A program made the position numbers and the translations under genes. Below the pieces are notes generated by a model. The model saw nothing but the letters and a program-made list of their open reading frames with translations, made no database searches and was not told the origin of the DNA. Shown piece after piece: positions 1 through 28,560 of a DNA stretch of 64,000 nucleotides. Position 1 is the first letter of the stretch. The number at the start of each line of letters is the position of its first letter. Source of the DNA: Gossypium raimondii (taxonomy: Eukaryota; Streptophyta; Magnoliopsida; Malvales; Malvaceae); assembly GCF_025698545.1 (NCBI RefSeq), contig NC_068569.1, positions 3,348,001 through 3,412,000 on the forward strand, read 5' to 3'.

Positions 1-95
1 TTGGCATGAAATAATACCATGAATGGTTTATGAATTAACACATGTTGGTAAGCCTGATATATGAATAAATGATCAAATTGAGCGGAACGCCGGAT

Positions 96-569
96 TTGAG
101 TACTTCTGATCAAGTGACAAAGTGATAAGTGATAGCTTCAGCTACACTTATCTGATCAAGTGACAAGTGGAAAGTGGAAAGTGATAAGTGATAGCTTCGG
201 CTACACTTATCTGATCAAGTGACAAGTGAAAAGTGATAAGTGATAGCTTCGGCTATACTTATCTGATCAAGAGACAAAGTGATAAGTAATAGCTTTAGCT
301 ACACTTATCTGATCAAGAGACAAAGTGATAAGTGGCTACACTTATCTGATCAAGAAACAAAGTGATAAGTGGCTACACTTATCTGATCAAGAAACAAAGT
401 GATAAGTGGCTACACTTATTTGATCAAGAAACAAAGTGATAAGTGGCTACACTTATCTGATCAGAAACAAAGTGATAGGTGGCTACACTTATCTGATCAG
501 GGACAAGTGATAAGTGATCATACGTAAGACCATAGTTATACTATGGCAAAGTGAAAGTGAAGTACTCAA
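96..569 (+). repeat. LTR hairpin-chain module, copy in L1 (first)
   Basis: Closing arms TTGAGTACTTC and GAAGTACTCAA are intact. Nine hairpins lie inside, with the same order and loops as in L3. Confidence 0.8.
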
Positions 570-2296
570 TTTTCCGTGACTAATCGAAATGAGGTATCAA
601 GACCTCGGATTTAACTGAGCCATAAATATTTTTATAAATATTTATGGAGTGTTAAAAGTTAGTATTAAAGTTTCGTAAGAAATTTTAAAGTTCGATAATT
701 AATTGAACAAAAGGACTAAATTGTAACAAATGCAAAATTTTGGGAAATGATTAAATAGCTTAAATGATAAAAGGAAGAGGCTTAAAGGACAAATAGACCC
801 AAGATCTATTTGGGCTGGACGGCAGAGGCATGAAATCAGCAAGAAAGTAAGGAGAATTAAGGCAAAATTGGAAAATTGCAAAATTTGCTTAATAAAGTTA
901 GGACCCAAGTGGAATTATCTAGATTTTCTTATTTCTGAATTCTCATCAGCTAAAACACCATGGAAGGGCTTCTTAAGCTGGTTCTTCATATTTTATTACA
1001 AGTAAGTTCAATTCTTGACTATTTCTTGAAATTTTGTATTTTATGACTTTTACAACTAGGCCCACTTATTAAATTCATTAGTTTTTGATTTTATGAAAGA
1101 AGTTGAAAGTTGATATGAATATGTGCTGGAAGTATATGATGATTTAGCATGAAATTAGAGCTTTAAATTGTTCATATGCTGATTTTATTGAAAGAATTGA
1201 ATAGAAAGTGAATGTTTGGGACCTAATAGTAAAAGAGTTTGAAGATAGAGTTATATGTGGAAATTCTGAATTTCAATAGTTGTGTAACAACTTATAATGT
1301 CTAGTAAAGTACTAATTGAGAAAATTAGATTAATTGAGGGTTAATTGAGAAAGGACCGAATTGTATAATGTGAAATTTGGGGAAAATAAATCAACATTTT
1401 GCACTAAAGCAGTTTTGGACAGGCATAGTGTAACTTTGAAAATCACCAAAATTGTAGAGATTGAATTAGAGGATGAATAAAATATGAAACTAAAGCTTAT
1501 TGAGTCTAGTTTCTTATAAAAGAAATGATGTAAGCAATGGAATTGTAAATCATGAGATATAATAGATTTTGTGAGACAAGGTCAGAATGAATTCGGGTTC
1601 CCTGTTCTGACTTTGGAAAATCATTAAAATTGAAAAAAAATGATTATGAGTTATAGTTTATATGGTTAGAATCCTTAATGAGTCTATTTTAGAAGAAACA
1701 AGCTAAAACATCATCCGAATTCTGTACAATGAGATAATTAATTTTAGTGAAGAGTGGTCGGAACTGTCAGACAGCGAAACAGGGAAACTTTAAAGAATAA
1801 ACTGTACTTTTGGCTGAACCAAAAATTATGAAAATTTTATGGTATGAAGATATGTGAGTCTAGTTTCAGGAAAATTAACGGATCTTAATTTGGATCTGTA
1901 GCTCCGGATAAAAATAATTTAGTGACTCTGACTCGGATAAACAGCTTTGAATATACATGTTATGAATATTGAAATTATGGTTAATGTTGTTTAATTGTTA
2001 TAACATTAGGATGTGGAATGGAGAGAGGAGGAGGAAAATTGGGAAATATATGAATGATTCGTGTATAAATGGTCATATGTTTGATTATAACTCATAAACG
2101 ATGAAATATGAATGATGCTTATTTTGTGCATTATTGGTCATGGTTTAAGCTCATGTGGAAAATAAAGTTTCATAGTATATGTGTATTATATTCAGATATG
2201 ATTTGGCATGAAATAATACCATGAATGGTTTATGAATTAACACATGTTGGTAAGCCTCGATATATGAATAAATGATCAAATTGAGCGAACGCCGAT

Positions 2297-2753
2297 TTGA
2301 GTACTTGATCAAGTGACAAAGTGATAAGTGATAAATTAACTACACTTATCTCGATCAAGGACAAGTGGAAAGGAAAGTGATAAGTGATAGCTCACACACT
2401 TATCGATCAATGAAGTGAAAAGTGATAAGTGATAGCTTCGGCTATACTTATCTGATCAAGAGACAAAGTGATAAGTAATAGCTTTAGCTACACTTATCTG
2501 ATCAAGAGACAAAGTGATAAGTGGCTACACTTATCTGATCAAGAAACAAAGTGATAAGTGGCTACACTTATCTGATCAAGAAACAAAGTGATAAGTGGCT
2601 ACACTTATTTGATCAAGAAACAAAGTGATAATGGCTACACTTATCCGATCGTAAACAAAGTGATAGGTGGCTACACTTATCGATCGGACAAGTGATAGTG
2701 ATCATATCGAAGACCATAGTTATACTATGGCAAAGTGAAAGTGAAGTACTCAA
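2297..2753 (+). repeat. LTR hairpin-chain module, copy in L1 (second, eroded)
   Basis: Same module with many small deletions. The first two hairpins lose their inner stems and the opening arm is shortened to TTGAGTACTT. Confidence 0.75.
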
Positions 2754-5082: not shown

Positions 5083-8000
5083 TGTAATAGCCCGATTTTA
5101 GGCTTAGTCGAACAAATGTTTCGGACCACAACCGACGAAAAAAAAAATGTAATGGCTTGAATTTTCAGAGGTGTCGAACGGTGATTCGAGATCACTAAAT
5201 TCGACAAATGGGTAGAAAATATTATTAATTTAGTAAGTATAAGTTAAATATGAAGTTAGGAAAATTTTTGAAATAGTGAATAGTGCACTAGAAATAAATA
5301 TTAAAATAATTAGAATCAAATGAGGTATCAAGACCTCGGGGATTTCAAACTGAGCCATAAATATTTTTATAAATATTTATGGAGTGTTAAAAAGTTAGTA
5401 TTAAAGTTTCGTTAAGAAATTTTAAAGTTCCGATAATTAATTGAACAAAAAGGACTAAATTGTAACAAATGCAAAATTTTGGGAAATGATTAAATAGCTT
5501 AAATGATAAAAGGAAGAGGGCTTAAAAGACAAATAGACCCAAGATCTATTTGGGCTGGACGGCAGAGGCATGAAATCAGCAAGAAAGTAAGGAGAATTAA
5601 GGGCAAAATTGGAAAATTGCAAAATTTGCTTAATAAAGTTAGGACCCAAGTGGAATTATCTAGATTTCTCTTCATTTTTCTGAATTCTCATCAGCTAAAA
5701 CACCATGGAAGGGCTTCTTCAAGCTGGTTCTTCATATTTTTATTACAAGTAAGTTCAATTCTTGACTATTTCTTGAAATTTTTGTATTTTTATGACTTTT
5801 ACAACTAGGCCCACTTGTTAAATTCATTAGTTTTGATTTTATGAAAGAAGTTGAAAGTTGATATGAATATGTGCTGGAAGTATATGATGATTTAGCATGA
5901 AATTAGAGCTTTAAATTGTTCATATGCTGATTTTATTGAAAGAATTGAATAGAAAGTGAATGTTTGGGACCTAATAGTAAAAGAGTTTGAAGATAGAGTT
6001 ATATGTGGAAATTCTGAATTTCAATAGTTGTGTAACAACTTATAATGTCTAGTAAAGTACTAATTGAGAAAATTAGATTAATTGAGGGTTAATTGAGAAA
6101 GGACCGAATTGTATAAACTGTGAAATTTGGGGCAAAATGGAAATCAACATTTTGCACTAAAGCAGTTTTGGACAGCAGCAGTAGTGTAACTTTGAAAAAT
6201 CACCAAAAATTGTAGAGATTGAATTAGAGGATGAATAAAATATGAAACTAAAGCTTATTGAGTCTAGTTTCTTATAAAAGAAATGATGTAAGCAATGGAA
6301 TTGTAAATCATGAGATATAATAGATTTTGTGAGACAAGGTCAGAATGAATTCGGGTTCCCCTGTTCTGACTTTGGAAAATCATTAAAAATTGAAAAAAAA
6401 TGATTATGAGTTATAGTTTATATGGTTAGAATCCTTAATGAGTCTATTTTTAGAAGAAACAAGCTAAAACATCATCCGAATTCTGTACAATGAGATAATT
6501 AATTTTAGTGAAGAGTGGTCGGAACTGTCAGACAGCGAAACAGGGAAACTTTAAAGAATAAACTGTACTATTTGGCTGAACCAAAATTATGAAAATTTTA
6601 TGGTATGAAGATATGTGAGTCTAGTTTCAGGAAAATTAACGGATCTTAATTTGGAGCTCTGTAGCTCCGGATAAAAATAATTTAGTGACTCTGACTCGGA
6701 TAAACAGCTTTGAATATACATGTTAGTGAATATTGAAATTATGGTTAATGTTGTTTAAGTGTGTTATACACATTAAGGATGTGGAATGGAGAGGAGGAGG
6801 AGGAAAATTGGGAAATATATGAATGATTCGTGTATAAATGGTCATATGTTTGATTATAACTCATAAACGATGAAATATGAATGATGCTTATTTTTGTGCA
6901 TTATTGGTCATGGTTTAAGCTCATGTGTGAAAATAAAGTTTCATAGTATATGTGTATGGTATATTCAGTATATGATTTGGCATGAAATAATACCATGAAT
7001 GGTTTATGAATTAACACATGTTGGTAAGCCTGATATATGAATAAATGATCAAATTGAGCGAACGCCGGATTTGAGTACTTCGATCAAGTGACAAAGTGAT
7101 AAGTGATAGCTTCAGCTACACTTATCTGATCAAGTGACAAGTGGAAAGTGGAAAGTGATAAGTGATAGCTTCGGCTACACTTATCTGATCAAGTGACAAG
7201 TGAAAAGTGATAAGTGATAGCTTGGCTATACTTATCGATCAAGAGACAAAGTGATAAGTAATAGCTTTAGCTACACTTATCTGATCAAGAGACAAAGTGA
7301 TAAGTGGCTACACTTATCTGATCAAGAAACAAAGTGATAAGTGGCTACACTTATCTGATCAAGAAACAAAGTGATAAGTGGCTACACTTATTTGATCAAG
7401 AAACAAAGTGATAAGTGGCTACACTTATCTGATCAGAAACAAAGTGATAGGTGGCTACACTTATCTGATCAGGGACAAGTGATAAGTGATCATACGTAAG
7501 ACCATAGTTATACTATGGCAAAGTGAAAGTGAAGTACTCAATTTTCCGTGACTGCTCCTAATTTGATTAAGGATGGTAAGTGACAAATGGGCCCGAAAGA
7601 ATTAAAGTAAATGGATAAGTGGTAGTGTATTTATATCAGGACGATGTTGTTATTCAAACTAAAGTGATATTTTCATTGCTAAATTGAGAATTTCATAAAT
7701 GTGTTATTGAATGGTATAATCAATAAACATTGAGTTAAATGGTAAATACGTATTAGTTTTGAATTTGATGTCATTGAATTGTACGTGAATTAAATGGAAA
7801 TTGCTAGTGATATGATTTAAATTATGAGCATGAGAAATTGCGAATTGAATGAAATGGAAATGAAGCATTAAATTGCATGAGTATGTATCGGGTCTCGCAG
7901 GCCCTAATTATTATGATTATAATATTTTGAGGATATATTGTGAAAAGTTATAGAAACATGTTAATTATTTTGAAAGTTTTAATTTTGATGAAATTTTATA

Positions 8001-10018: not shown

Positions 10019-10290
10019 TTGTAATAGCCCGATTTTAGGCTTAGTCGAACAATGGTTTCGGACCACAAATCAACGAAAAAAAATGTAATGGCTTGAATTT
10101 TCAGAGGTGTCGGAACGGTGATTCGAGATCACTAAATTCGACAAATGGGTAGAAAATATTATTAATTTAGTAAGTATAAGTTAAATATGAAGTTAGGAAA
10201 ATTTTGAAATAGTGAATAGTGCACTAGAAATAAATATTAAAATAATTAGAATCGAAATGAGGTATCAAGACCTCGGGATTTTAAACTGAG

Positions 10291-10318
10291 CCATAAATAT
10301 TTTTATAAATATTTATGG
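10291..10318. repeat. Perfect 12-bp-stem palindrome in the LTR 5' part
   Basis: CCATAAATATTT, loop TTAT, then AAATATTTATGG. It is present in every LTR copy that retains this part (for example near 626, 5353, 15242 and 20197). It is present with one mismatch in the separate element near 60057. The flanking words GAGGTAT(C/T)(A/G)AGACCTCG are shared between the families. Confidence 0.85.
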
Positions 10319-11998
10319 AGTGTTAAAAGTTAGTATTAAAGTTTCGTTAAGAAATTTTAAAGTTCCGATAATTAATTGAACAAAAGGACTAAATTGTAAC
10401 AAATGCAAAATTTTGGGAAATGATTAAATAGCTTAAATGATAAAAGGAAGAGGGCTTAAAGGACAAATAGACCCAAGATCTATTTGGGCTGGACGGCAGA
10501 GGCATGAAATCAGCAAGAAAGTAAGGAGAATTAAGGGCAAAATTGGAAAATTGCAAAATTTGCTTAATAAAGTTAGGACCCAAGTGGAATTATCTAGATT
10601 TCTCTTCATTTTCTGAATTCTCATCAGCTAAAACACCATGGAAGGGCTTCTTCAAGCTGGTTCTTCATATTTTTATTACAAGTAAGTTCAATTCTTGACT
10701 ATTTCTTGAAATTTTGTATTTTATGACTTTTACAACTAGGCCCACTTATTAAATTCATTAGTTTTGATTTTATGAAAGAAGTTGAAAGTTGATATGAATA
10801 TGTGCTGGAAGTATATGATGATTTAGCATGAAATTAGAGCTTTAAATTGTTCATATGCTGATTTTATTGAAAGAATTGAATAGAAAGTGAATGTTTGGGA
10901 CCTAATAGTAAAAGAGTTTGAAGATAGAGTTATATGTGGAAATTCTGAATTTCAATAGTTGTGTAACAACTTATAATGTCTAGTAAAGTACTAATTGAGA
11001 AAATTAGATTAATTGAGGGTTAATTGAGAAAGGACCGAATTGTATAAACTGTGAAATTTGGGGCAAAATGGAAATCAACATTTTGCACTAAAGCAGTTTT
11101 GGACAGCAGCAGTAGTGTAACTTTGAAAAATCACCAAAATTGTAGAGATTGAATTAGAGGATGAATAAAATATGAAACTAAAGCTTATTGAGTCTAGTTT
11201 CTTATAAAAGAAATGATGTAAGCAATGGAATTGTAAATCATGAGATATAATAGATTTTGTGAGACAAGGTCAGAATGAATTCAGGTTCCCTGTTCTGACT
11301 TTGGAAAATCATTAAAATTGAAAAAAAATGATTATGAGTTATAGTTTATATGGTTAGAATCCTTAATGAGTCTATTTTAGAAGAAACAAGCTAAAACATC
11401 ATCCGAATTCTGTACAATGAGATAATTAATTTTAGTGAAGAGTGGTCGGAACTGTCAGACAGCGAAACAGGGAAACTTTAAAGAATAAACTGTACTATTT
11501 GGCTGAACCAAAATTATGAAAATTTTATGGTATGAAGATATGTGAGTCTAGTTTCAGGAAAATTAACGGATCTTAATTTGGAGCTCTGTAGCTCCGGATA
11601 AAAATAATTTAGTGACTCTGACTCGGATAAACAGCTTTGAATATACATGTTAGTGAATATTGAAATTATGGTTAATGTTGTTTAAGTGTGTTATACACAT
11701 TAAGGATGTGGAATGGAGAGGAGGAGGAGGAAAATTGGGAAATATATGAATGATTCGTGTATAAATGGTCATATGTTTGATTATAACTCATAAACGATGA
11801 AATATGAATGATGCTTATTTTTGTGCATTATTGGTCATGGTTTAAGCTCATGTGTGAAAATAAAGTTTCATAGTATATGTGTATGGTATATTCAGTATAT
11901 GATTTGGCATGAAATAATACCATGAATGGTTTATGAATTAACACATGTTGGTAAGCCTGATATATGAATAAATGATCAAATTGAGCGGAACGCCGGAT

Positions 11999-12472
11999 TT
12001 GAGTACTTCTGATCAAGTGACAAAGTGATAAGTGATAGCTTCAGCTACACTTATCTGATCAAGTGACAAGTGGAAAGTGGAAAGTGATAAGTGATAGCTT
12101 CGGCTACACTTATCTGATCAAGTGACAAGTGAAAAGTGATAAGTGATAGCTTCGGCTATACTTATCTGATCAAGAGACAAAGTGATAAGTAATAGCTTTA
12201 GCTACACTTATCTGATCAAGAGACAAAGTGATAAGTGGCTACACTTATCTGATCAAGAAACAAAGTGATAAGTGGCTACACTTATCTGATCAAGAAACAA
12301 AGTGATAAGTGGCTACACTTATTTGATCAAGAAACAAAGTGATAAGTGGCTACACTTATCTGATCAGAAACAAAGTGATAGGTGGCTACACTTATCTGAT
12401 CAGGGACAAGTGATAAGTGATCATACGTAAGACCATAGTTATACTATGGCAAAGTGAAAGTGAAGTACTCAA
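11999..12472 (+). repeat. LTR hairpin-chain module (nine hairpins inside a closing stem), copy in L3
   Basis: The module opens with TTGAGTACTTC (11999-12009) and closes with its exact reverse complement GAAGTACTCAA (12462-12472). Between them are nine tandem imperfect repeats. Each has an arm GATAAGTG and partner CACTTATC, separated either by GCTA or by an inner stem TAGC-loop-GCTA. The inner loop is TTCG with a C-G closing pair in two hairpins (for example 12086-12114), the classic extra-stable cUUCGg tetraloop. Other copies have TTCA, or AGCTTTAGCT with an A-for-G change. A last hairpin, CCATAGT-TAT-ACTATGG, precedes the closing arm. Hairpins are separated by TGATCA-containing spacers. RNA structure is inferred from complementarity alone. 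Confidence 0.85.
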
Positions 12473-13022
12473 TTTTCCGTGACCGTTCCCTAATTTGATT
12501 AAGGATGGTAAGTGACAAATGGGCCCGAAAGAATTAAAGTAAATGGATAAGTGGTAGTGTATTTATATCAGGACGATGTTGTTATTCAAACTAAAGTGAT
12601 ATTTTCATTGCTAAATTGAGAATTTCATAAATGTGTTATTGAATGGTATAATCAATAAACATTGAGTTAAATGGTAAATACGTATTAGTTTTGAATTTGA
12701 TGTCATTGAATTGTACGTGAATTAAATGGAAATTGCTAGTGATATGATTTAAATTATGAGCATGAGAAATTGCGAATTGAATGAAATGGAAATGAAGCAT
12801 TAAATTGCATGAGTATGTATCGGTCTCGCAGCCCTAATTATTATGATTATAATATTTTGAGGATATATTGTGAAAAGTTATAGAAACATGTTAATTATTT
12901 TGAAAGTTTTAATTTTGATGAAATTTTATAACTCGGTTAAATACGTTTACAAGTGTATGTGTTTTGGTAATGCCTCGTACCCTATTCCGGTGTTGGATAC
13001 GGTTAAGGGGTGTTACATTTAG

Positions 13023-13034
13023 TGGTATCAGAGC
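13023..13034 (+). other. Primer binding site, tRNA-Met type
   Basis: TGGTATCAGAGC lies 5 bp after the LTR end. This is the usual plant retrotransposon site complementary to the 3' end of methionine tRNA. In I1, I2 and I4 the same site has lost one or more bases. Confidence 0.85.
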
Positions 13035-13598
13035 TACGGTTTAGTCGGTTCTCGGACCAAACGTAGCATATGTGAGCCTAGCTATACATGCCACGTTATT
13101 ACTCTTGATGATGTGATATCTCCGGGCTCTAACGAAATTGCTTTGTTAAGACAGAGATGATTTTCAATCGAGCTATTTTCGATAATGCTAAAAATGATAT
13201 TGAGATAAATGAAATATGCTCACGTTATGTTGGAATTTGGAAAGGTAAGTATAAAAATTTGTGATATGGATGTGTTCATGTATGAAAAGAGATGACTATA
13301 AGTTAAAAAAAAAAAAAGTTTATGTTGTGATAAGCTCATCCAAGTATGTTGGTGATTATATAATGCTATGTGCTCAACATATTTGATTAAGTGAATATGA
13401 TAAGCAAATTTACTTAAATAGATGGAACGTGTGTATGTACATCTGCTTGAATAAGTGAAATTAGTATGTTCATATGATAGAATCTTATGTTTAATTGTTA
13501 AATTAAAGATAATAAGATATTTTGTTTTATGTCTAAACCATGAATATTATAATAGTATGAAAAATTGAATTGGAAGTCAAATTGAGTAGAACGCAGAA

Positions 13599-13880
13599 TG
13601 AGTACTTTCGCTCGGTGATATGTGATGAATTGACGGAAAAGACCATGGTTTGACCATGGCAACATGTGAACATGTGATTATGTGATTCGTGTAAGACCAT
13701 AGTGGGCTATGGCATCGGTAAGTGATATGTGATTCGTGTAAGACCATAGTGGGCTATGGCATCGATAAAGTGATATGTGATTTCGTGTAAGACCATAGCT
13801 GGGCTATGGCATCGGTATGTGATTTGTGATTACGTGTAAGACCATAGTTGGACTATGGCATCGAGAAAATGAAGTACTCA
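13599..13880 (+). repeat. Internal hairpin-chain module, copy in I3
   Basis: Opening arm TGAGTACTT and closing arm AAGTACTCA are complementary. Inside are five hairpins: CCATGG-TTTGA-CCATGG once, then CCATAG-loop-CTATGG four times with loops such as TGGG, CTGGG and TTGGA. The change from G-C to A-T at the same stem position is a compensatory pair. Spacers contain TGTGATTCGTGTAAGA. The module is followed by ATTCCGTAAGACGTTCTC, which resembles the sequence after the LTR module. Confidence 0.8.
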
Positions 13881-14960
13881 ATTCCGTAAGACGTTCTCTA
13901 ATTTGGCAAATGTCGGTAAGTAAAATAGAAGCCAAGTATTGGAATTTAATTAGATATTAACATTGAGCTTGAGTAAGTAAATTCGTTGTGTGAAATTGTG
14001 AGTGACAGAAAACATTTGTAATAAATAGATGTGTTAATTTGCTTGGAATGAATTACGTGGTTATGATGGTATTACATTGATGATGAATACAAAATCATAT
14101 ATATATATGTATCTATGAGAGCAAGTTGAAAGATTTATGACTTCACCATCACCCCCTTATCAGTATTGTTCTATGACGAAAATTATCTTGATGAGACAGA
14201 TATGTTTTTCAACTGAGTTAATTCTAATAGTATAGAAATAAATACTAAAATGTTTGAGTGAAAATGTATTGATTATGAGTTGAAACTCATAAAGGTATGG
14301 ATCAAAGAATAAAACATTTTTTTATTGATGAATGTTATAATTATACAAGCATATGAGTTATGATATTTGGATTATGATGCTATATAGAAATTTTGATTGT
14401 GAATTAGTGATTTGAGTTAGAATTTTGTGTTGAGAACAAAAGTGATTAAAAGCAAATGTTTATTAAATGCTTTGAGAATGTGAACTTAGTAATGAATTGG
14501 CTATTTGTGATGGTATGTGTTATGCGCATTTATGTGTAAGATAAATTTGAGGCTTTACTACACTCACCCCCATATTAGTAAAATGTTACAATGAAATTTG
14601 TGAGATTTTGGTTGAATAAGCTTACGAGTGTAGTGTTACAGAAGTTCGTGTACGGGAGAATAATAATGTGGTCGGAAAAGTGAATGAATTAGAAAATGAG
14701 GACAATATAAAAAGAGAGAAATATTTGATAGTTCTGAAAACTACTCAGATTATCAAAATGGATATCATTCTATATGGATTGTAATTTTTCGATACTTTGT
14801 GTAGCTTCAGATGTTGAAATATCGCTATCCTGATTTTCTTATGAATCTATGTGATTATCTCAAAAGATATGAAAATCCAAAATCATGTGTGAATTTGAAA
14901 TATCTTGTGAAGTAAATCATTAACCTACCATCTGGTAAGATTTTAGGGACGAAAATCCCT

Positions 14961-14972
14961 AAAGGGGGAGAG
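14961..14972 (+). other. Polypurine tract before L4
   Basis: AAAGGGGGAGAG immediately precedes the L4 start. Confidence 0.8.
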
Positions 14973-14973
14973 T

Positions 14974-17972
14974 TGTAATAGCCGATTTTAGGCTTAGTCG
15001 AACAATGGTTTCGGGACCACAACCGAAAAAAAAATGTAATGGCTTGAATTTTCAGAGGTGTCGGACGGTGATTCGAGATCACTAAATTCGACAAATGGGT
15101 AGAAAATATTATTAATTTAGTAAGTATAAGTTAAATATGAAGTTAGGAAAATTTTTGAAATAGTGAATAGTGCACTAGAAATAAATATTAAAATAATTAG
15201 AATCGAAATGAGGTATCAAGACCTCGGGATTTTAAACTGAGCCATAAATATTTTTATAAATATTTATGGAGTGTTAAAAGTTAGTATTAAAGTTTAGTTA
15301 AGAAATTTTAAAGTTCGATAATTAATTGAACAAAAGGACTAAATTGTAACAAATGCAAAATTTTGGGAAATGATTAAATAGCTTAAATGATAAAAGGAAG
15401 AGGGCTTAAAGGACAAATAGACCCAAGATCTATTTGGGCTGGACGGCAGAGGCATGAAATCAGCAAGAAAGTAAGGAGAATTAAGGGCAAAATTGGAAAA
15501 TTGCAAAATTTGCTTAATAAAGTTAGGACCCAAGTGGAATTATCTAGATTTCTCTTCATTTTTCTGAATTCTCATCAGCTAAAACACCATGGAAGGGCTT
15601 CTTCAAGCTGGTTCTTCATATTTTTATTACAAGTAAGTTCAATTCTTGACTATTTCTTGAAATTTTTGTATTTTTATGACTTTTACAACTAGGCCCACTT
15701 ATTAAATTCATTAGTTTTTGATTTTATGAAAGAAGTTGAAAGTTGATATGAATATGTGCTGGAAGTATATGATGATTTAGCATGAAATTAGAGCTTTAAA
15801 TTGTTCATATGCTGATTTTATTGAAAGAATTGAATAGAAAGTGAATGTTTGGGACCTAATAGTAAAAGAGTTTGAAGATAGAGTTATATGTGGAAATTCT
15901 GAATTTCAATAGTTGTGTAACAACTTATAATGTCTAGTAAAGTACTAATTGAGAAAATTAGATTAATTGAGGGTTAATTGAGAAAGGACCGAATTGTATA
16001 AACTGTGAAATTTGGGGCAAAATGGAAATCAACATTTTGCACTAAAGCAGTTTTGGACAGCAGCAGTAGTGTAACTTTGAAAAATCACCAAAATTGTAGA
16101 GATTGAATTAGAGGATGAATAAAATATGAAACTAAAGCTTATTGAGTCTAGTTTCTTATAAAAGAAATGATGTAAGCAATGGAATTGTAAATCATGAGAT
16201 ATAATAGATTTTGTGAGACAAGGTCAGAATGAATTCGGGTTCCCTGTTCTGACTTTGGAAAATCATTAAAATTGAAAAAAAATGATTATGAGTTATAGTT
16301 TATATGGTTAGAATCCTTAATGAGTCTATTTTAGAAGAAACAAGCTAAAACATCATCCGAATTCTGTACAATGAGATAATTAATTTTTAGTGAAGAGTGG
16401 TCGGAACTGTCAGACAGCGAAACAGGGAAACTTTAAAGAATAAACTGTACTATTTGGCTGAACCAAAATTATGAAAATTTTATGGTATGAAGATATGTGA
16501 GTCTAGTTTCAGGAAAATTAACGGATCTTAATTTGGAGCTCTGTAGCTCCGGATAAAAATAATTTAGTGACTCTGACTCGGATAAACAGCTTTGAATATA
16601 CATGTTAGTGAATATTGAAATTATGGTTAATGTTGTTTAAGTGTGTTATACACATTAAGGATGTGGAATGGAGAGGAGGAGGAGGAAAATTGGGAAATAT
16701 ATGAATGATTCGTGTATAAATGGTCATATGTTTGATTATAACTCATAAACGATGAAATATGAATGATGCTTATTTTTGTGCATTATTGGTCATGGTTTAA
16801 GCTCATGTGTGAAAATAAAGTTTCATAGTATGTGTGTATGGTATATTCAGTATATGATTTGGCATGAAATAATACCATGAATGGTTTATGAATTAACACA
16901 TGTTGGTAAGCCTGATATATGAATAAATGATCAAATTGAGCGGAACGCCGGATTTGAGTACTTCTGATCAAGTGACAAAGTGATAAGTGATAGCTTCAGC
17001 TACACTTATCTGATCAAGTGACAAGTGGAAAGTGGAAAGTGATAAGTGATAGCTTCGGCTACACTTATCTGATCAAGTGACAAGTGAAAAGTGATAAGTG
17101 ATAGCTTCGGCTATACTTATCTGATCAAGAGACAAAGTGATAAGTAATAGCTTTAGCTACACTTATCTGATCAAGAGACAAAGTGATAAGTGGCTACACT
17201 TATCTGATCAAGAAACAAAGTGATAAGTGGCTACACTTATCTGATCAAGAAACAAAGTGATAAGTGGCTACACTTATTTGATCAAGAAACAAAGTGATAA
17301 GTGGCTACACTTATCTGATCAGAAACAAAGTGATAGGTGGCTACACTTATCGATCGGGACAAGTGATAAGTGATCATACGTAAGACCATAGTTATACTAT
17401 GGCAAAGTGAAAGTGAAGTACTCAATTTTCCGTGACCGTTCCCTAATTTGATTAAGGATGGTAAGTGACAAATGGGCCCGAAAGAATTAAAGTAAATGGA
17501 TAAGTGGTAGTGTATTTATATCAGGACGATGTTGTTATTCAAACTAAAGTGATATTTTCATTGCTAAATTGAGAATTTCATAAATGTGTTATTGAATGGT
17601 ATAATCAATAAACATTGAGTTAAATGGTAAATACGTATTAGTTTTGAATTTGATGTCATTGAATTGTACGTGAATTAAATGGAAATTGCTAGTGATATGA
17701 TTTAAATTATGAGCATGAGAAATTGCGAATTGAATGAAATGGAAATGAAGCATTAAATTGCATGAGTATGTATCGGGTCTCATGAGCCCTAATTATTATG
17801 ATTATAATATTTTGAGGATATATTGTGAAAAGTTATAGAAACATGTTAATTATTTTGAAAGTTTTAATTTTGATGAAATTTTATAACTTTCGGTTAAATA
17901 CGTTTACAAGTGTATGTGTTTTGGTAATGCCTCGTACCTATTCCGGTGTTGGATACGGTTAAGGGTGTTACA
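14974..17972 (+). mobile_element. LTR copy L4 (about 3.0 kb)
   Basis: 2999 bp with TG...CA ends and very high similarity to L3, differing by scattered small indels. The hairpin module lies at 16954-17425. Confidence 0.88.
16954..17425 (+). repeat. LTR hairpin-chain module, copy in L4
   Basis: Nine hairpins with both closing arms intact. It is almost identical to the L3 copy. Confidence 0.82.
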
Positions 17973-19918: not shown

Positions 19919-22878
19919 TGTAATAGCCCGATTTTAGGCTTAGTCGGAACAGTGGTTTCGGGACCACAAATCCGACGAAAAAAAAAATGTAATGGCTTGA
20001 ATTTTCAGAGGTGTCGGAACGGTGATTCGAGATCACTAAATTCGACAAATGGGTAGAAAATATTATTAATTTAGTAAGTATAAGTTAAATATGAAGTTAG
20101 GAAAATTTTTGAAATAGTGAATAGTGCACTAGAAATAAATATTAAAATAATTAGAATCGAAATGAGGTATCAAGACCTCGGGGATTTTAAACTGAGCCAT
20201 AAATATTTTTATAAATATTTATGGAGTGTTAAAAAGTTAGTATTAAAGTTTCGTTAAGAAATTTTAAAGTTCCGATAATTAATTGAACAAAAAGGACTAA
20301 ATTGTAACAAATGCAAAATTTTGGGAAATGATTAAATAGCTTAAATGATAAAAGGAAGAGGGCTTAAAGGACAAATAGACCCAAGATCTATTTGGGCTGG
20401 ACGGCAGAGGCATGAAATCAGCAAGAAAGTAAGGAGAATTAAGGGCAAAATTGGAAAATTGCAAAATTTGCTTAATAAAGTTAGGACCCAAGTGGAATTA
20501 TCTAGATTTCTCTTCATTTTCTGAATTCTCATCAGCTAAAACACCATGGAAGGGCTTCTTCAAGCTGGTTCTTCATATTTTTATTACAAGTAAGTTCAAT
20601 TCTTGACTATTTCTTGAAATTTTTGTATTTTATGACTTTTACAACTAGGCCCACTTATTAAATTCATTAGTTTTGATTTTATGAAAGAAGTTGAAAGTTG
20701 ATATGAATATGTGCTGGAAGTATATGATGATTTAGCATGAAATTAGAGCTTTAAATTGTTCATATGCTGATTTTATTGAAAGAATTGAATAGAAAGTGAA
20801 TGTTTGGGACCTAATAGTAAAAGAGTTTGAAGATAGAGTTATATGTGGAAATTCTGAATTTCAATAGTTGTGTAACAACTTATAATGTCTAGTAAAGTAC
20901 TAATTGAGAAAATTAGATTAATTGAGGGTTAATTGAGAAAGGACCGAATTGTATAAACTGTGAAATTTGGGGCAAAATGGAAATCAACATTTTGCACTAA
21001 AGCAGTTTTGGACAGCAGCAGTAGTGTAACTTTGAAAAATCACCAAAAATTGTAGAGATTGAATTAGAGGATGAATAAAATATGAAACTAAAGCTTATTG
21101 AGTCTAGTTTCTTATAAAAGAAATGATGTAAGCAATGGAATTGTAAATCATGAGATATAATAGATTTTGTGAGACAAGGTCAGAATGAATTCGGGTTCCC
21201 TGTTCTGACTTTGGAAAATCATTAAAATTGAAAAAAAATGATTATGAGTTATAGTTTATATGGTTAGAATCCTTAATGAGTCTATTTTAGAAGAAACAAG
21301 CTAAAACATCATCCGAATTCTTTACAATGAGATAATTAATTTTAGTGAAGAGTGGTCGGAACTGTCAGACAGCGAAACAGGGAAACTTTAAAGAATAAAC
21401 TGTACTATTTGGCTGAACCAAAATTATGAAAATTTTATGGTATGAAGATATGTGAGTCTAGTTTCAGGAAAATTAACGGATCTTAATTTGGAGCTCTGTA
21501 GCTCCGGATAAAAATAATTTAGTGACTCTGACTCGGATAAACAGCTTTGAATATACATGTTAGTGAATATTGAAATTATGGTTAATGTTGTTTAAGTGTG
21601 TTATACACATTAAGGATGTGGAATGGAGAGGAGGAGGAGGAAAATTGGGAAATATATGAATGATTCGTGTATAAATGGTCATATGTTTGATTATAACTCA
21701 TAAACGATGAAATATGAATGATGCTTATTTTGTGCATTATTGGTCATGGTTTAAGCTCATGTGTGAAAATAAAGTTTCATAGTATATGTGTATGGTATAT
21801 TCAGTATATGATTTGGCATGAAATAATACCATGAATGGTTTATGAATTAACACATGTTGGTAAGCCTGATATATGAATAAATGATCAAATTGAGCGAACG
21901 CGGATTTGAGTACTTCGATCAAGTGACAAAGTGATAAGTGATAGCTTCACTACACTTATCCGATCAAGTGACAAGTGGAAAGTGGAAAGTGATAAGTGAT
22001 AGCTTGCTACACTTATCCGATCAAGTGACAAGTGAAAAGTGATAAGTGATAGCTTCGCTATACTTATCGATCAAGAGACAAAGTGATAAGTAATAGCTTT
22101 AGCTACACTTATCTGATCAAGAGACAAAGTGATAAGTGGCTACACTTATCTGATCAAGAAACAAAGTGATAAGTGGCTACACTTATTTGATCAAGAAACA
22201 AAGTGATAAGTGGCTACACTTATCTGATCAGAAACAAAGTGATAGGTGGCTACACTTATCTGATCAGGGACAAGTGATAAGTGATCATACGTAAGACCAT
22301 AGTTATACTATGGCAAAGTGAAAGTGAAGTACTCAATTTTCCGTGACTGCTCCCTAATTTGATTAAGGATGGTAAGTGACAAATGGGCCCGAAAGAATTA
22401 AAGTAAATGGATAAGTGGTAGTGTATTTATATCGGAGACGATGTTGTTATTCAAACTAAAGTGATATTTTCATTGCTAAATTGAGAATTTCATAAATGTG
22501 TTATTGAATGGTATAATCAATAAACATTGAGTTAAATGGTAAATACGTATTAGTTTTGAATTTGATGTCATTGAATTGTACGTGAATTAAATGGAAATTG
22601 CTAGTGATATGATTTAAATTATGAGCATGAGAAATTGCGAATTGAATGAAATGGAAATGAAGCATTAAATTGCATGAGTATGTATCGGTCTCGCAGCCCT
22701 AATTATTATGATTATAATATTTTGAGGATATATTGTGAAAAGTTATAGAAACATGTTAATTATTTTGAAAGTTTTAATTTTGATGAAATTTTATAACTCG
22801 GTTAAATCGTTTACAAGTGTATGTGTTTTGGTAATGCCTCGTACCTATTCCGTGTTGGATACGGTTAAGGGTGTTACA
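19919..22878 (+). mobile_element. LTR copy L5 (2.96 kb)
   Basis: Full-length LTR with one hairpin repeat fewer than L1-L4. After its end at 22878 the expected primer site is absent and unrelated AT-rich sequence begins. Confidence 0.86.
21906..22336 (+). repeat. LTR hairpin-chain module, copy in L5 (eight hairpins)
   Basis: One GATAAGTG-GCTA-CACTTATC hairpin fewer than L1-L4. Several single-base losses occur in the inner stems. The eight-hairpin form is shared with L6. Confidence 0.8.
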
Positions 22879-25294
22879 TTTTAATTGATCAATTGGAAAT
22901 ATATGAAAAAAATTTATATATAATGTTTTGTATTTTATTATCCTTTATAGATTTATGAATATTATGAATATATAAAAAATAGGAAGTTGTAATCAAAAAA
23001 AATAGTATTTGTATTTTAATATGATTTATATAAAATAAATTATGAGAAATAAATAATGGACAGGTACATTTTAATTTGAAAAAAAAAGTATTTAGTATAT
23101 AAAAGAATGAAAATAATTGAAATATGAATAAAGAAGAGAAAAAATATGAGAACATAGATAATAAATTTAAAATGAATTAATTATTATCAAAAAAGATTAG
23201 TATATAAGAGTTGATCAATTTTGTACAGCTATAAATAGATAGAATGAATAAATTAATGAGATATTTTTTATTTAAAATGAGATATGCTATAAATATATGA
23301 TTATTATTTAATACTAATATGTTAAGTATAAAGCGATTATAATGAATGTATTTTAAATGAAGAGATTGAAAAAATATATAGGAATATATTGTACTAAAAA
23401 ATGAATATATTTGAAAATGTTATTAAAATAATAAATTATATGAACAGATTTAGAAAAAATCATATTATTTAAAGGATAGAAAATTAAAAATTTCGATGAA
23501 ATTATGAAATTTTAGTAGATATGTTGAAAAAATACAAAATATATTAATATGTAGATTAATAGTAGGAAATGAAATAGTGATGTTAAATAGTATGAGCTGA
23601 TATGGTACTAAATTATATGTATTTAGTACTAGTGATAAAGGATATAATAATGAGAATAGAAAATTTATAAAATGATTATTAACAAGTATATGACTAAGAA
23701 TAAGTTCTCAGAAAGTCAGAAGAGAATAAGATGCATTAGAAAAAGACTCAAAAGTGTCAGAGAAAGCATCAAAAAAATTCACATTAGGATATGCAAAAAA
23801 AGATGAAGGTTTAAAACTTATGATAAGTTATTACTATTAAGAAGAAATATAGATAGATTTAATATTATGAATGATAAATGATAGATAATTCTGATTGGTA
23901 GGTATCAAGTTTAATTTATGTATTGGTAGTTTAAGTTTGAACCAAGTATTATTAAATTAATGATTATTACTGTTGAATTATTGTCTAGATTGTTTGCTGA
24001 CAATTTTTATAGTTTTGATAATTAAAATATGAAAGTTAATATGCTCACTAGTTGGAATTTGGAAAGGTAAGTATAATTGTTATGTTTATGTTGAATGACT
24101 AAATTAAAAAAAAAAGTTTATTTGTATAAGCTATCCATTGTTGGTATTAAAATTTGGTTAACATATTTGTAGTATATGATAATAAATTTATAAAATGGAT
24201 GGTTTCTTGAAAAGTAATATATTTATAAAAATTATGTTTAATTGTAAATAAAGATAATGAGTTATTTGTTTTGTAAACCATAATTTATAATGTATAAATT
24301 GAATGGAATAAATAGAGAAAGAAACTTATTGAAATTATTTATTGGAAATATGGTTTGCCAGAAATGATAAATTATTATGTATTCGTTAACCATATGGGTA
24401 TGCATGATTGAAGTATAGTGATTCGAAGATATGCTATGGTATTGATATGGATTGAAACATGGTTTGCAGCAAATGTGATTGTATTATGAATAAGTGACTA
24501 TGGCATCGGAATAGTACTATTCGTAAGATCTAATTGGCAATGGAGTAAAATAAGCAATATTGGAATTATATGTATACATGTAGTAATTTTAATGTAGAAT
24601 GATTGAAAATTGTAAATAATGATGTTTAATTCTGGATAATTCGGGTATGGGTATTAATGAGAAAAAATTTATATGTATCATGAGAGAAGTAAATTTATGT
24701 TCACATCCTTTAATTGTATAAAAATTTTTTAAGATTAGTTTAACTGAGTTATTAAATTAGAAATAAATAAAAATTTAGTGAAAATTATGATTAGTTAAAT
24801 TAAAGGATTGGATCAATATAATTTTTTATTGATGAATTATAATTATAAGATATAGTTTATATTTGAATTATAGTTATAGAAATTTATTGTAATTTGATTA
24901 ATAATTTTTGTGAGAACAAAAGTGATAAAGAAATTTTAAAATTTTTAATTGAATTTAATATGTATTTGTTATGGATGTTTGATTATGTGTAAAAAATTTG
25001 GTTTAATACCATTTATAAAATGTTAAAAAATTTTGAATTTGGTTGAATAAACTTGAAGTGATGTTAAAATTGGTTGAAAAAGTGGTAAAAGTAATGATTA
25101 GAAAATTGAGGATTAAAAAGAAATATTTGTATTAAATACATTAAAAATGGAATTTATTGATTTAATTTCATATTTGTTATTCGATGTTAATATGTGATTT
25201 TATGAATCATGGGAATAAAAAAGAAAATTAAAATCATGATAGAATTAATAAATGTAATAAATATTAACCTACTTTTAATTTTGGATCAAATAAA
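22879..25294 (+). mobile_element. Degenerate internal region I5
   Basis: 22879 to about 24030 is very AT-rich sequence without clear similarity to the array. From about 24035 (ATATGCTCACTAGTTGGAAT) to 25294 it follows the I-region order but with deletions everywhere. The internal hairpin module survives only as traces (CCATATGGGTATG; TAGTACTATTCG near 24505). Loss is by deletion more than substitution, so low-quality assembled sequence is as likely as age. Confidence 0.6.
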
Positions 25295-26653
25295 TGTATC
25301 GATTTTAGCTTATGTTCGAAAGTTTGGACCAAATCAGAAATTGTAATGCTTGAATTTAAGTCAACGTGATTCGTAAAATACATTAAGGATGTGGAATGGA
25401 GAGGAGGAGGAGGAAAATTGGGAAATATATGAATGATTCGTGTATAAATGGTCATATGTTTGATTATAACTCATAAACGATGAAATATGAATGATGCTTA
25501 TTTTGTGCATTATTGGTCATGGTTTAAGCTCATGTGTGAAAATAAAGTTTCATAGTATATGTGTATGGTATATTCAGTATATGATTTGGCATGAAATAAT
25601 ACCATGAATGGTTTATGAATTAACACATGTTGGTAAGCCCGATATATGAATAAATGATCAAATTGAGCGGACGCCGGATTTGAGTACTTCGATCAAGTGA
25701 CAAAGTGATAAGTGATAGCTTCACTACACTTATCCGATCAAGTGACAAGTGGAAAGTGGAAAGTGATAAGTGATAGCTTGGCTACACTTATCGATCAAGT
25801 GACAAGTGAAAAGTGATAAGTGATAGCTTGGCTATACTTATCGATCAAGAGACAAAGTGATAAGTAATAGCTTTAGCTACACTTATCGATCAAGAGACAA
25901 AGTGATAAGTGGCTACACTTATCTGATCAAGAAACAAAGTGATAAGTGGCTACACTTATTTGATCAAGAAACAAAGTGATAAGTGGCTACACTTATCGAT
26001 CGTAAACAAAGTGATAGGTGGCTACACTTATCTGATCAGGGACAAGTGATAAGTGATCATACGTAAGACCATAGTTATACTATGGCAAAGTGAAAGTGAA
26101 GTACTCAATTTTCCGTGACCGTTCCCTAATTTGATTAAGGATGGTAAGTGACAAATGGGCCGAAAGAATTAAAGTAAATGGATAAGTGGTAGTGTATTTA
26201 TATCGGACGATGTTGTTATTCAAACTAAAGTGATATTTTCATTGCTAAATTGAGAATTTCATAAATGTGTTATTGAATGGTATAATCAATAAACATTGAG
26301 TTAAATGGTAAATACGTATTAGTTTTGAATTTGATGTCATTGAATTGTACGTGAATTAAATGGAAATTGCTAGTGATATGATTTAAATTATGAGCATGAG
26401 AAATTGCGAATTGAATGAAATGGAAATGAAGCATTAAATTGCATGAGTATGTATCGGGTCTCGCAGGCCCTAATTATTATGATTATAATATTTTGAGGAT
26501 ATATTGTGAAAAGTTATAGAAACATGTTAATTATTTTGAAAGTTTTAATTTTGATGAAATTTTATAACTCGGTTAAATACGTTTACAAGTGTATGTGTTT
26601 TGGTAATGCCTCGTACCCTATTCCGGTGTTGGATACGGTTAAGGGGTGTTACA
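25295..26653 (+). mobile_element. LTR copy L6, 5'-truncated, right end of the array
   Basis: A degenerate 5' stub (25295-25378, TGTATCGATTTTAGC...) is joined to the LTR at offset of about 1.69 kb (CATTAAGGATGTGGAATGG). It is then highly similar to L5 up to GGGGTGTTACA at 26653. Non-array sequence follows. Confidence 0.75.
25680..26108 (+). repeat. LTR hairpin-chain module, copy in L6 (eight hairpins)
   Basis: Eight hairpins, like L5. The closing arms TTGAGTACTTC and GAAGTACTCAA are intact. The shared count with L5 suggests these two LTR segments are each other's closest relatives. Confidence 0.8.
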
Positions 26654-28560
26654 TATTGGTTCACTATTATTCAATCAGCTCTTGGGGCTCGTTCTCAACT
26701 AATACATATAGTAGCATACATACTTTATCTAGCTTAACACACATATAAGCATATTATACCAAATCATTAACATTTCATAACTTCTATACTACTTTTGTCA
26801 TCTTAGGTTGCCCGAAAACGATGACTTTTGCTATCAAGACTCATTATACCATCTCGAGTGGTCTGGAAACAATGGGTTATTCAAATTCAACATTCTACCA
26901 TCTCGGATAGCCTGACAACAATGGCTTTCACCATACTTACATTTTACTATCCCAAATGGCTCAACAACAATAGTTCTCACGGTTTACCTAACCTACCATC
27001 CTGTACGGCCCGACAACAATGACATTCAATATCTAAATATTTTAATATCCCGAATAGCTTGGCAACGATGGTTTTCTACCTAGGGCATGGCAACTAATAT
27101 AAACAATACTCGAGTTTAACAAGGTAACATTTAATCAATAAACATCATAACCACGTGTCGTGCTTTAATGTCATCACTAATTCACCATTTCATCACATCA
27201 TATAGTATATTTCAATACATTTTCATACTAAATAACACATATCAATCAAATCATATAATTTTTTATTCTATTCAATTTAGTCCATGTCTCAGAATGTCAA
27301 TCTCGAACATAATAATTCAGTTCAAATAGCCATTGAGAACTCATCTCAATGTTATATCATGCAAAACATCATAAATATCCAATAATTAAATTGATCCCGA
27401 GTCATAGAAATACAAATCGGGTCTCGTGTCATTCCTCAACAACTCTCGCTTTTGCTTTCCCTTTCGATAGCCCAGCGTTGACATTAGCTACGTACAATCA
27501 TATAACATATATCAATATAAAATTCCAGCCAATTCACAAACAATTATTAATTCATGCATATTTTACAATTTATTCAATTTAGTCCTTAAGCCCAATATAA
27601 GCATAACTTTCAATTCCTAGCTTTGGATTGAAATTCGATTTCACATATTTTCATCAAGGACCCTCTACTTCCTATTCCTATGGAAATTTCATAATTTTTA
27701 TATTTTATTCAATTTGGTCCCCAATGTACGAAATAAAAATTAAGCTTTACAATTTAATCTTTTTCATAAATTAAACTTAATTTCTATCAATTTCACATAA
27801 TTCTTCAAGAAACCAACAATGCAACTTTATAAAATTTTAACAGTTTCAAGAAATTGGTACATGGGATAGCTAAATTAAGCTCTCATGAGTTCAAATTCAT
27901 AAAATTACAAAAAGAAAAAAAAGACTTGAATTCACATACCAATTTAAGGCTGTATGTTACAAAAATTTCTTAGGTTTTTCTTCTTTGGCAAAGACAAGGA
28001 TGAATGAAGAAGATAACTTCTCATCCACTAATTTTATTATATATAGTAGGGTCAAATTTTAATTAATTTAGCTTAATTAACTTAAACTTAGTTTAATTAA
28101 ATTAAGCTAACATTTAACTTATCTAGTGGAGATGTGATCATCATCCACTAGTTTCTATTGGAAAATGGTTCGATTTCCATTTAGGACATTTGGATAATTA
28201 CTATTTTAATCATCAAGCATTTCATCAAATAAAAATTTATAGCGATTGGACTTTTACAATTTAGTCCATGAGCCCTAATTAACTATAATTTCGGCCAAAT
28301 TATTTAACTAAATTTCAATTCATCAATATAATAACTCCTTAACTATCCCTATTTCATATTTAATGACTCGATTATAACAATGAATTAAATGAAAACTTTC
28401 GAATAATTCAATGACTATTTTGTAACCTTCTGAAGTTGAGTGACCAAAATATAAACTTACTAATAGTTTATGGCATTGGGGGCAGTTTACCCTTAAAATT
28501 GAAAGAGAGGATAGTCGGCGTCGTTTTGTATCATATAGCGGACCTATGGCCCACATGAGT
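26654..28560 (-). mobile_element. Decayed LTR-type sequence, probably minus-strand
   Basis: AT-rich, non-coding, with repeated words such as AATTTAGTCC, ATTTGGTCCC and TTTACAATTTAGTCC, typical when read in reverse of plant Gypsy-type LTRs. It contains a minisatellite (26793-27088). The last roughly 130 bp (GGTCACTCAACTT in reverse) resemble another common plant repeat. Element borders were not found. Confidence 0.5.
26793..27088. repeat. Minisatellite, about 48 bp x 6, degenerate
   Basis: Six imperfect units share the core ACCATCtCGgatgGCctGaCAACAATGg read loosely, for example near 26849, 26897, 26945, 26995 and 27040. The units begin with an ACCATC-like word and carry CAACAATGG about 20 bp later. 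Confidence 0.65.

Follow-up and report, generated by a model that had tools for sequence, protein, structure and literature searches.

The retroviral psi/dimerisation leader carries four stem-loops, SL1-SL4, downstream of the primer-binding site (PMC3902901). Among plant elements, Gypsy elements harbour tandem repeats (PMC11963269), and the Cassandra TRIM forms tandem LTR-internal-LTR arrays that lack gag-pol and for which RNA secondary structure has been proposed (PMC7215508). In addition, enod40 RNA contains stem-loop insertions derived from transposable elements (TEs), and TE-derived stem-loops can resemble microRNA precursors (PMC10578108). The repeat content of Retand, a plant Gypsy element, and the presence of tandem repeats in plant LTR elements are familiar, and tandem gene-less LTR elements and leader stem-loops are also known, each separately. 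In the open-licence literature, as covered by titles and the starts of abstracts, we found no description of exchangeable rows of hairpins with compensated stems.

Here, we describe an array of hairpins at 11999-12472 of a 64,000-nucleotide stretch of Gossypium raimondii DNA (the window). The array lies in an LTR. Related LTR elements of this genome carry at least four kinds of hairpin array, this one included, and two of the kinds were seen in the same LTR slot. The layout recalls the retroviral psi leader in that several stem-loops stand beyond the primer-binding site in untranslated sequence, in our case about 350-1,640 nt past the motif (type 2 hairpins in the window element, type 4 in a related element, L066; the place of the LTR array hinges on the start site). 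It differs in that the units here are many, near-identical and set in a row, and also occur inside LTRs; homology is not expected. Like Retand and other plant Gypsy elements, these are Gypsy-like LTR elements with amplified short tandem repeats, but here the repeats are hairpins, some kinds with compensated stems, placed in the LTR and in a non-coding internal region, and the window element has no pol from which to read its lineage. Cassandra is similar in its lack of gag-pol, its TGGTATCAGAGC motif, its head-to-tail LTR-internal-LTR arrays and its proposed RNA structure. That structure, however, consists of a 5S RNA-like LTR and LTR-LTR pairing, whereas here 3-kb LTRs carry rows of hairpins. 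Rfam includes a 5S model, and no Rfam match at gathering score to the 5S RNA-like sequence that is the hallmark of Cassandra was found anywhere in the window. The enod40 insertions are stem-loops too, derive from repetitive elements with a relation to tandem repeats and are retained as RNA domains, but they are single insertions in a host non-coding RNA, unlike the rows found here in a group of elements.

The window from about 0.6 to 22.9 kb consists of one LTR retrotransposon repeated head-to-tail, in which 3.0-kb LTRs alternate with a 1.95-kb internal region at a period of 4.95 kb. Direct LTRs, TG...CA ends, a primer-binding site and a polypurine tract are all present, and the LTR that contains the array is 99.0% identical to the one at 14974-17972. 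The main features are:

10020-13017, forward strand: LTR with the array, 2,998 bp, TGTAATAGCC...GGGGTGTTACA, read directly; polypurine tract upstream, primer-binding motif downstream
11754-11766, forward strand: candidate TATA box TTCGTGTATAAAT, proposed from the sequence, upstream of the array
13018-14973, forward strand: internal region without coding capacity, polypurine tract at its end
13023-13034, forward strand: primer-binding motif TGGTATCAGAGC, at the start of the internal region
13599-13880, forward strand: second module, with closing arms TGAGTACTT...AAGTACTCA and five CCAT...ATGG hairpins at 13643-13858

The primer-binding motif presumably matches initiator tRNA-Met. Because the longest stop-to-stop frame of the internal region is 108 aa and a Pfam scan of 10 of its 26 listed frames gave nothing above the cut-off, the window element is a non-autonomous LTR retrotransposon, with LARD/TRIM-like features, and it would need helper proteins. 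By size, a LARD has an internal region of several kb and a TRIM less than about 0.5 kb; the window element (LTR 3.0 kb, internal region 1.95 kb) falls between the two and belongs to neither size class. Among 32 loci scanned, three (L105, L065 and L071) have a block like the TATA candidate. If the candidate box is used, the transcript would start about 200 bp before the LTR array and so include it. Two of the related loci, L103 and L105, are head-to-tail repeats as well, with periods of 4.84 and 5.5 kb like the 4.95 kb of the window, so that tandem growth is not confined to the window locus.

Other observations concern the surrounding sequence. Window positions 1-580 are identical to 11904-12483, and from 582 on the sequence matches 10250 onward; this jump from late to early LTR reflects either a first array in a cut LTR or an assembly joint. 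Diverged internal-region fragments lie at 24038-24308 and 24758-25129, upstream of a partial LTR (25380-26654), and a diverged relative (about 69%) of the 5' part of the LTR lies at 60021-60835, distant from the tandem series. The window also holds plant-type gene fragments (ferrochelatase and SHMT) and an inverted repeat of about 700 bp at 57931-58628 (90% identity) with AT-rich tandem repeats, near which repeats with GGCGCC occur at 57663-57714 and 58739-58819. The motif GGTAAGT, which resembles a 5' splice site, stands 35 bases past the closing arm in both modules (12507-12513 and 13915-13921).

The original prediction pictured the array as a row of eight or nine hairpins whose arms are kept in each unit, with an inner TAGC/GCTA stem in four units, two cUUCGg loops and a long-range closing stem. 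Nine GATAAGTG...CACTTATC hairpins (type 1) were in fact found at 12027-12396, together with a tenth of another type:

11999-12009, forward strand: left closing arm TTGAGTACTTC, intact in 38 of 41 copies
12027-12212, forward strand: hairpins 1-4, long type, with an outer 8-bp stem, a 1-nt bulge, an inner TAGC/GCTA stem and a tetraloop
12230-12396, forward strand: hairpins 5-9, short type, GATAAGTG-GCTA-CACTTATC, period 36-37 bp
12433-12449, forward strand: hairpin 10, CCATAGT-TAT-ACTATGG, of the same type as the internal module
12462-12472, forward strand: right closing arm GAAGTACTCAA, intact in 41 of 41 copies

The inner stem is present in units 1-4, as predicted, and the tetraloops of these units read TTCA, TTCG, TTCG and TTTA in order, which places the two cUUCGg loops in units 2 and 3 only. 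The closing stem was also borne out: its arms can form 11 bp, and all but one of these pairs are present in the minimum-energy fold. The arms contain the self-complementary AGTACT and are near-invariant across copies. A claim that failed is that of arms kept in each unit, since only five of the nine outer stems at 12027-12396 are perfect (three have one G.U and one an A.C mismatch), as are 254 of 411 over 41 copies. A UUCG loop as the key conserved feature was ruled out, because loops differ between units (TTCG, TTCA, TTTA or GCTA across the array) and between hairpin kinds (mostly TGG in type 2, TTTGT in type 3 and 16 nt in type 4). No tRNA or known RNA family was found as the identity of the array; an Rfam scan of the window gave no match at gathering score to any family.

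When the 474-bp array was folded in both orientations against dinucleotide shuffles, as had been suggested, it proved far better than its controls. The sense strand has a minimum free energy of -159 kcal/mol (z -9.67) and the other strand a z of -8.39, and in neither case was any of 100 shuffles as good. A sliding scan of 9.9-15.1 kb (200-nt windows, 25 shuffles each) peaks over the array, with sense z to -8.7, while 50 control windows from 28-63 kb, on both strands, gave a mean z of -0.4 (sd 1.6, minimum -6.6). Taken singly, type 1 units exceed their shuffles by a moderate margin (three units, five folds, z -2.5 to -3.4), so the strong z of the array comes from repetition.

When the 750.8-Mb genome (281 contigs) was searched with the array, 834 candidate places emerged, and 40 of them were scored. 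The copy set used here (n = 41) joins the 7 copies in the window to 34 scored outside it and, having been picked by similarity to the array, leans to young copies. Apart from 11999-12472, the window copies are:

96-569, forward strand: array copy 1
2297-2753, forward strand: array copy 2, diverged
7071-7541, forward strand: array copy 3
16954-17425, forward strand: array copy 5
21906-22336, forward strand: array copy 6, with 8 type 1 hairpins
25680-26108, forward strand: array copy 7, with 8 type 1 hairpins, in the partial LTR

The array had been expected in every LTR copy. It is present at all seven window places and in the 34 fetched copies, which were found with the array itself as query and so cannot show presence in each LTR copy. 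On the other side stands L105, whose related LTR has no array, which makes the LTR slot optional or dispensable.

Type 1 hairpins number 8-12 per copy, and the differences look like duplications of unit blocks. The hairpins had been described as covarying, and an excess of compensatory over single-sided changes was the proposed test. Over the 41 copies the outer-stem cells comprise 3124 Watson-Crick, 116 G.U, 41 A.C and 7 other, and seven of the eight outer pairs are without any double change in 411 hairpins. Pair 8 is G-C in 287, A-T in 21, G.T in 64, A.C in 38 and G.G in 1; its 308 Watson-Crick cells compare with a mean of 291 and a maximum of 311 in shuffles. Among 108 short units of length 37, 11 are distinct, and variation is too low for a comparison of stem with spacer. 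A genome-wide pattern with spacer and loop fixed and both arms free matched 447 type 1 units (reversed control, 8); among the first 100 of these, counted by eye, 80 are perfect, 20 have one G.U at either of two sites, and none has a double change. The type 1 units are young and near-invariant, their stem variants are mostly one-sided, and there is no compensation beyond shuffles. For this array the test lends no support to covariation, and a simple amplified unit would suffice for type 1 taken alone.

A separate peculiarity of these copies is that single bases are repeatedly missing from the tips of hairpins (TTCGG to TTGG, TTCAGC to TTCAC and TTCGGC to TTCGC), often several per copy. These deletions occur in three window copies, W3 (7071-7541), W6 (21906-22336) and W7 (25680-26108), and outside the window in L011, L012, L015, L019, L021-L023, L025-L027, L034, L036 and L037. 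Compression of hairpins during sequencing or assembly would account for them, as would slippage brought about by the hairpins.

The sister arrays give a different picture. The second module, in the internal region, has flanks and closing arms similar to those of the LTR array and a different hairpin, so that the two modules amount to similar frames with different filling. Its type 2 hairpin has the form CCATNNN-TGG-N'N'N'ATGG, mostly within an AAGA...CATCG context in the window module. The pattern AAGACCATN9ATGGCATCGG has 402 genomic matches, and a pattern with all seven pairs free has 298; the reversed control gave none in either case, and the two lists overlap. Here and below, the listed matches of each pattern search are the first 100 in contig order. 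Among the 100 of 402 listed, pair 5 is A-T in 51 and G-C in 45 (96 of 100 Watson-Crick; shuffled mean 50) and pair 6 is T-A in 75 and G-C in 21 (96 of 100; shuffled mean 64), with pair 7 at 84 Watson-Crick vs 85 shuffled. The 100 of 298 listed behave in the same way, with pair 5 G-C in 55 and A-T in 41 (96 of 100; shuffled mean 51), pair 6 T-A in 69 and G-C in 26 (95 of 100; shuffled mean 59), and no excess at pair 7 (86 vs 87). Pairs 1-4 in this list vary one-sidedly, apart from one double change at pair 1. Among the fetched loci, 91 of 124 context-matched type 2 places have all seven pairs intact.

Two further kinds were found in related elements. L103 aligns with the window LTR on either side of the array, and between the window-equivalent positions 11974 and 12614 its LTR carries GATTCGGCAC-TTTGT-GTGTCGAATC hairpins (type 3). 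A pattern with the inner pairs free has 113 genomic matches (control 0). Among the 100 of these listed, pair 6 is G-C in 83 and A-T in 13, that is 96 Watson-Crick vs 74 shuffled; pairs 3-5 show no excess apart from a trace at pair 5 (92 vs 90), 21 matches have C.A at pair 3 (with A fixed by the pattern), and pair 7 is G.U in 100 of 100 (the G being fixed by the pattern). Type 4 consists of GGGGG or GGTGG, then TTGCTAAGTGCTGATT, then CCCCC or CCACC; with three inner pairs free and the outer pairs and 16-nt loop fixed, it has 1010 genomic matches (control 0). The middle pair in the 100 of 1010 listed is T-A in 64 and G-C in 32 (96 Watson-Crick vs 53 shuffled), and it is intact in 35 of 37 fetched places with at most two loop mismatches, vs 18 shuffled. 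The outermost fifth and sixth pairs are weak at these 37 places, being intact in 23 and 6.

The test that gave nothing for type 1 succeeds in part on the sister arrays. Compensation appears at two of the seven type 2 pairs and at a single pair each in types 3 and 4, and the other pairs are one-sided or invariant. The shuffles behind these pair counts ignore the relatedness of copies. Type 2 has three predominant arm types (GTC/GAC, AGC/GCT and ATC/GAT), which implies few independent double changes despite the many cells, and we estimate that the compensated changes go back to a small number of independent events, one to three for each kind, that were copied many times. One type 2 array, at L106:4878-5159, has a period of 48 bp and lacks stops in several frames of either strand. 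The frames listed for the L106 locus are 91-127 aa long, and L104 has none above 118 aa. A coding array was rejected: the window element lacks long frames, and the open frames of L106 are explained by a 48-bp period divisible by three.

Folding of the sister arrays is uneven. The type 3 array of L103 has a z of -4.59, with none of 200 shuffles as good, and the type 4 array of L066 a z of -2.33, with 1 of 100 as good and a minimum-energy fold that is not a row of hairpins. Type 2 as sense RNA folds no better than shuffles, either as a unit (z +0.54, 137 of 200 shuffles as good) or in 200-nt windows over the module (z -0.6 to +1.0); the corresponding antisense values are -2.40 for the unit and -0.6 to -1.7 for the windows.

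The content of a slot differs between elements, and hairpin kinds occur in LTR and internal region alike. In the window element, L103 and L105, type 2 comes after the primer-binding motif. In L104 and L106 it lies apparently inside the LTR, in its upstream part (the limits come from partial alignments), some 300-500 bp before the block of LTR sequence that runs up to the candidate TATA box. Type 3 occupies the LTR slot of L103, and in L105 it comes after the primer-binding motif. L066, the locus in which type 4 could be placed, has a primer-binding motif at 92, type 4 at 446-754 and type 2 at 1579-1732. A scan for hairpin clusters found one in the window outside the modules (57545-57670, by the inverted repeat there) and one other, AT-rich, in L086 among the fetched loci (L001-L004 and L009-L042 left out).

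Changing arms with kept pairing, and unrelated hairpins in similar frames, suggest that hairpin shape, rather than sequence, is what is kept. The reading that we favour, though tentatively and short of an even chance, is that selection acts on hairpins in the genomic RNA of the element. Stem sequence would then be free to vary as long as the arms still pair, and one kind of hairpin could give way entirely to another. From the position of the candidate TATA box, the LTR array would lie downstream of the transcription start. In this reading RNA, not DNA, would be the selected form. The internal module lies between the primer-binding motif and the polypurine tract, so full-length genomic RNA must contain it. 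A role specifically in packaging or dimerisation is more doubtful. It is favoured among RNA roles because the element encodes nothing and its internal module is within full-length RNA: the row might offer docking or dimerisation sites in repeated form, and by these non-coding RNAs would enter particles made by the Gag of a helper element. The RNA role raised by the original prediction gains from a structure that beats shuffles and from a frame that holds another hairpin type, and loses from the lack of covariation in the array that it named. The sense folding of type 2 and the weak type 4 structure, which is not a row, also count against an RNA reading, and in L104 and L106 the 3' end might be the one part of a primary transcript to include the type 2 array. 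Pairs allowed in sense RNA (G.U) and in antisense RNA (A.C) stand at 116:41 cells in type 1, from few sites, and 20:0, from two sites, among the 100 of 447 listed units; at 21:13 (298-match list), 26:9 (fetched loci) and 12:6 (402-match list, three pairs) in type 2; and at 7:25 in type 3 pairs 3-6, where 21 of the A.C are at pair 3. The balance is towards sense for types 1 and 2 and the opposite way for type 3 pairs 3-6, an inconsistent strand bias.

Changed arms with kept pairing do not separate RNA selection from mutation that corrects palindromes, and this is the main rival. As the element is reverse-transcribed or replicated, switches of template from one arm to another close by would perfect palindromes without function, slippage or unequal exchange would multiply the units, and the compensated changes would be by-products. 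We judge this possible but rather unlikely. It fits the varying unit number with its apparent block duplications, the homogenised short units (11 distinct in 108), the recurrence of unrelated hairpin kinds within one element group, and the apex deletions, which show that palindromes disturb copying or sequencing. It is difficult to see, however, why such a process would let one-sided variants persist (64 G.T and 38 A.C of 411 at type 1 pair 8), would leave the G.U of type 3 pair 7 uncorrected in 100 of 100 listed matches (with G fixed by the pattern), or would make so few hairpin clusters beyond the modules (57545-57670 in the window, and L086 among the fetched loci scanned). If instead one chance hairpin-bearing unit had simply been amplified, with no selection on pairing, the type 1 array alone would be explained, given its near-identical units, its predominance of one-sided changes and the moderate z (-2.5 to -3.4) of single units. 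Four unrelated hairpin kinds, a shared frame and compensated pairs would not, and such a plain minisatellite, already disfavoured by the sister arrays, strikes us as very improbable.

Perhaps the units act as DNA, as inverted pairs of binding sites in a row that forms an LTR enhancer or insulator. Tandem LTR repeats are known as enhancers in plants, in Tnt1 and Tto1, and the short unit is a symmetric GATAAG...CTTATC, perfect in 80 of the 100 listed units, which we take to resemble a GATA motif or I-box of plants. In L104 and L106, moreover, the type 2 arrays lie upstream of an LTR block. We consider this decidedly unlikely, because arm bases change with complementarity kept in types 2, 3 and 4, which is unexpected if a protein reads the arms, and because modules lie in the internal region too. 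A link to silencing, in which transcript hairpins serve as Dicer-like substrates or decoys and so steer or evade small-RNA production, runs against stem length: the stems here are 7-10 bp, too short for the usual plant Dicer substrates. We give that link the least credence, for all that it would suit rows of stems in non-coding elements with near-identical copies and the possible likeness of TE-derived stem-loops to microRNA precursors (PMC10578108).

Returning to selected hairpins in genomic RNA, one may go further and speculate, at long odds, that the rows are exchangeable recognition cassettes. Each hairpin type would then be a multivalent address for a particular Gag, gene-less elements would switch helper by acquiring a different array, and exchange of arrays between LTR and leader would drive the turnover of parasite families in the genome. 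To our knowledge, the RNA signals by which gene-less plant LTR elements hijack helper proteins are largely open. Should the compensated pairs be a by-product of palindrome-correcting mutation, the lesson would be one of caution, since covariation in repeated elements could then mimic selected RNA structure. If the rows are packaging signals, the four kinds and hundreds of genomic units would constitute a ready natural experiment, in which each kind predicts a partner and the kinds that share a slot can be compared directly.
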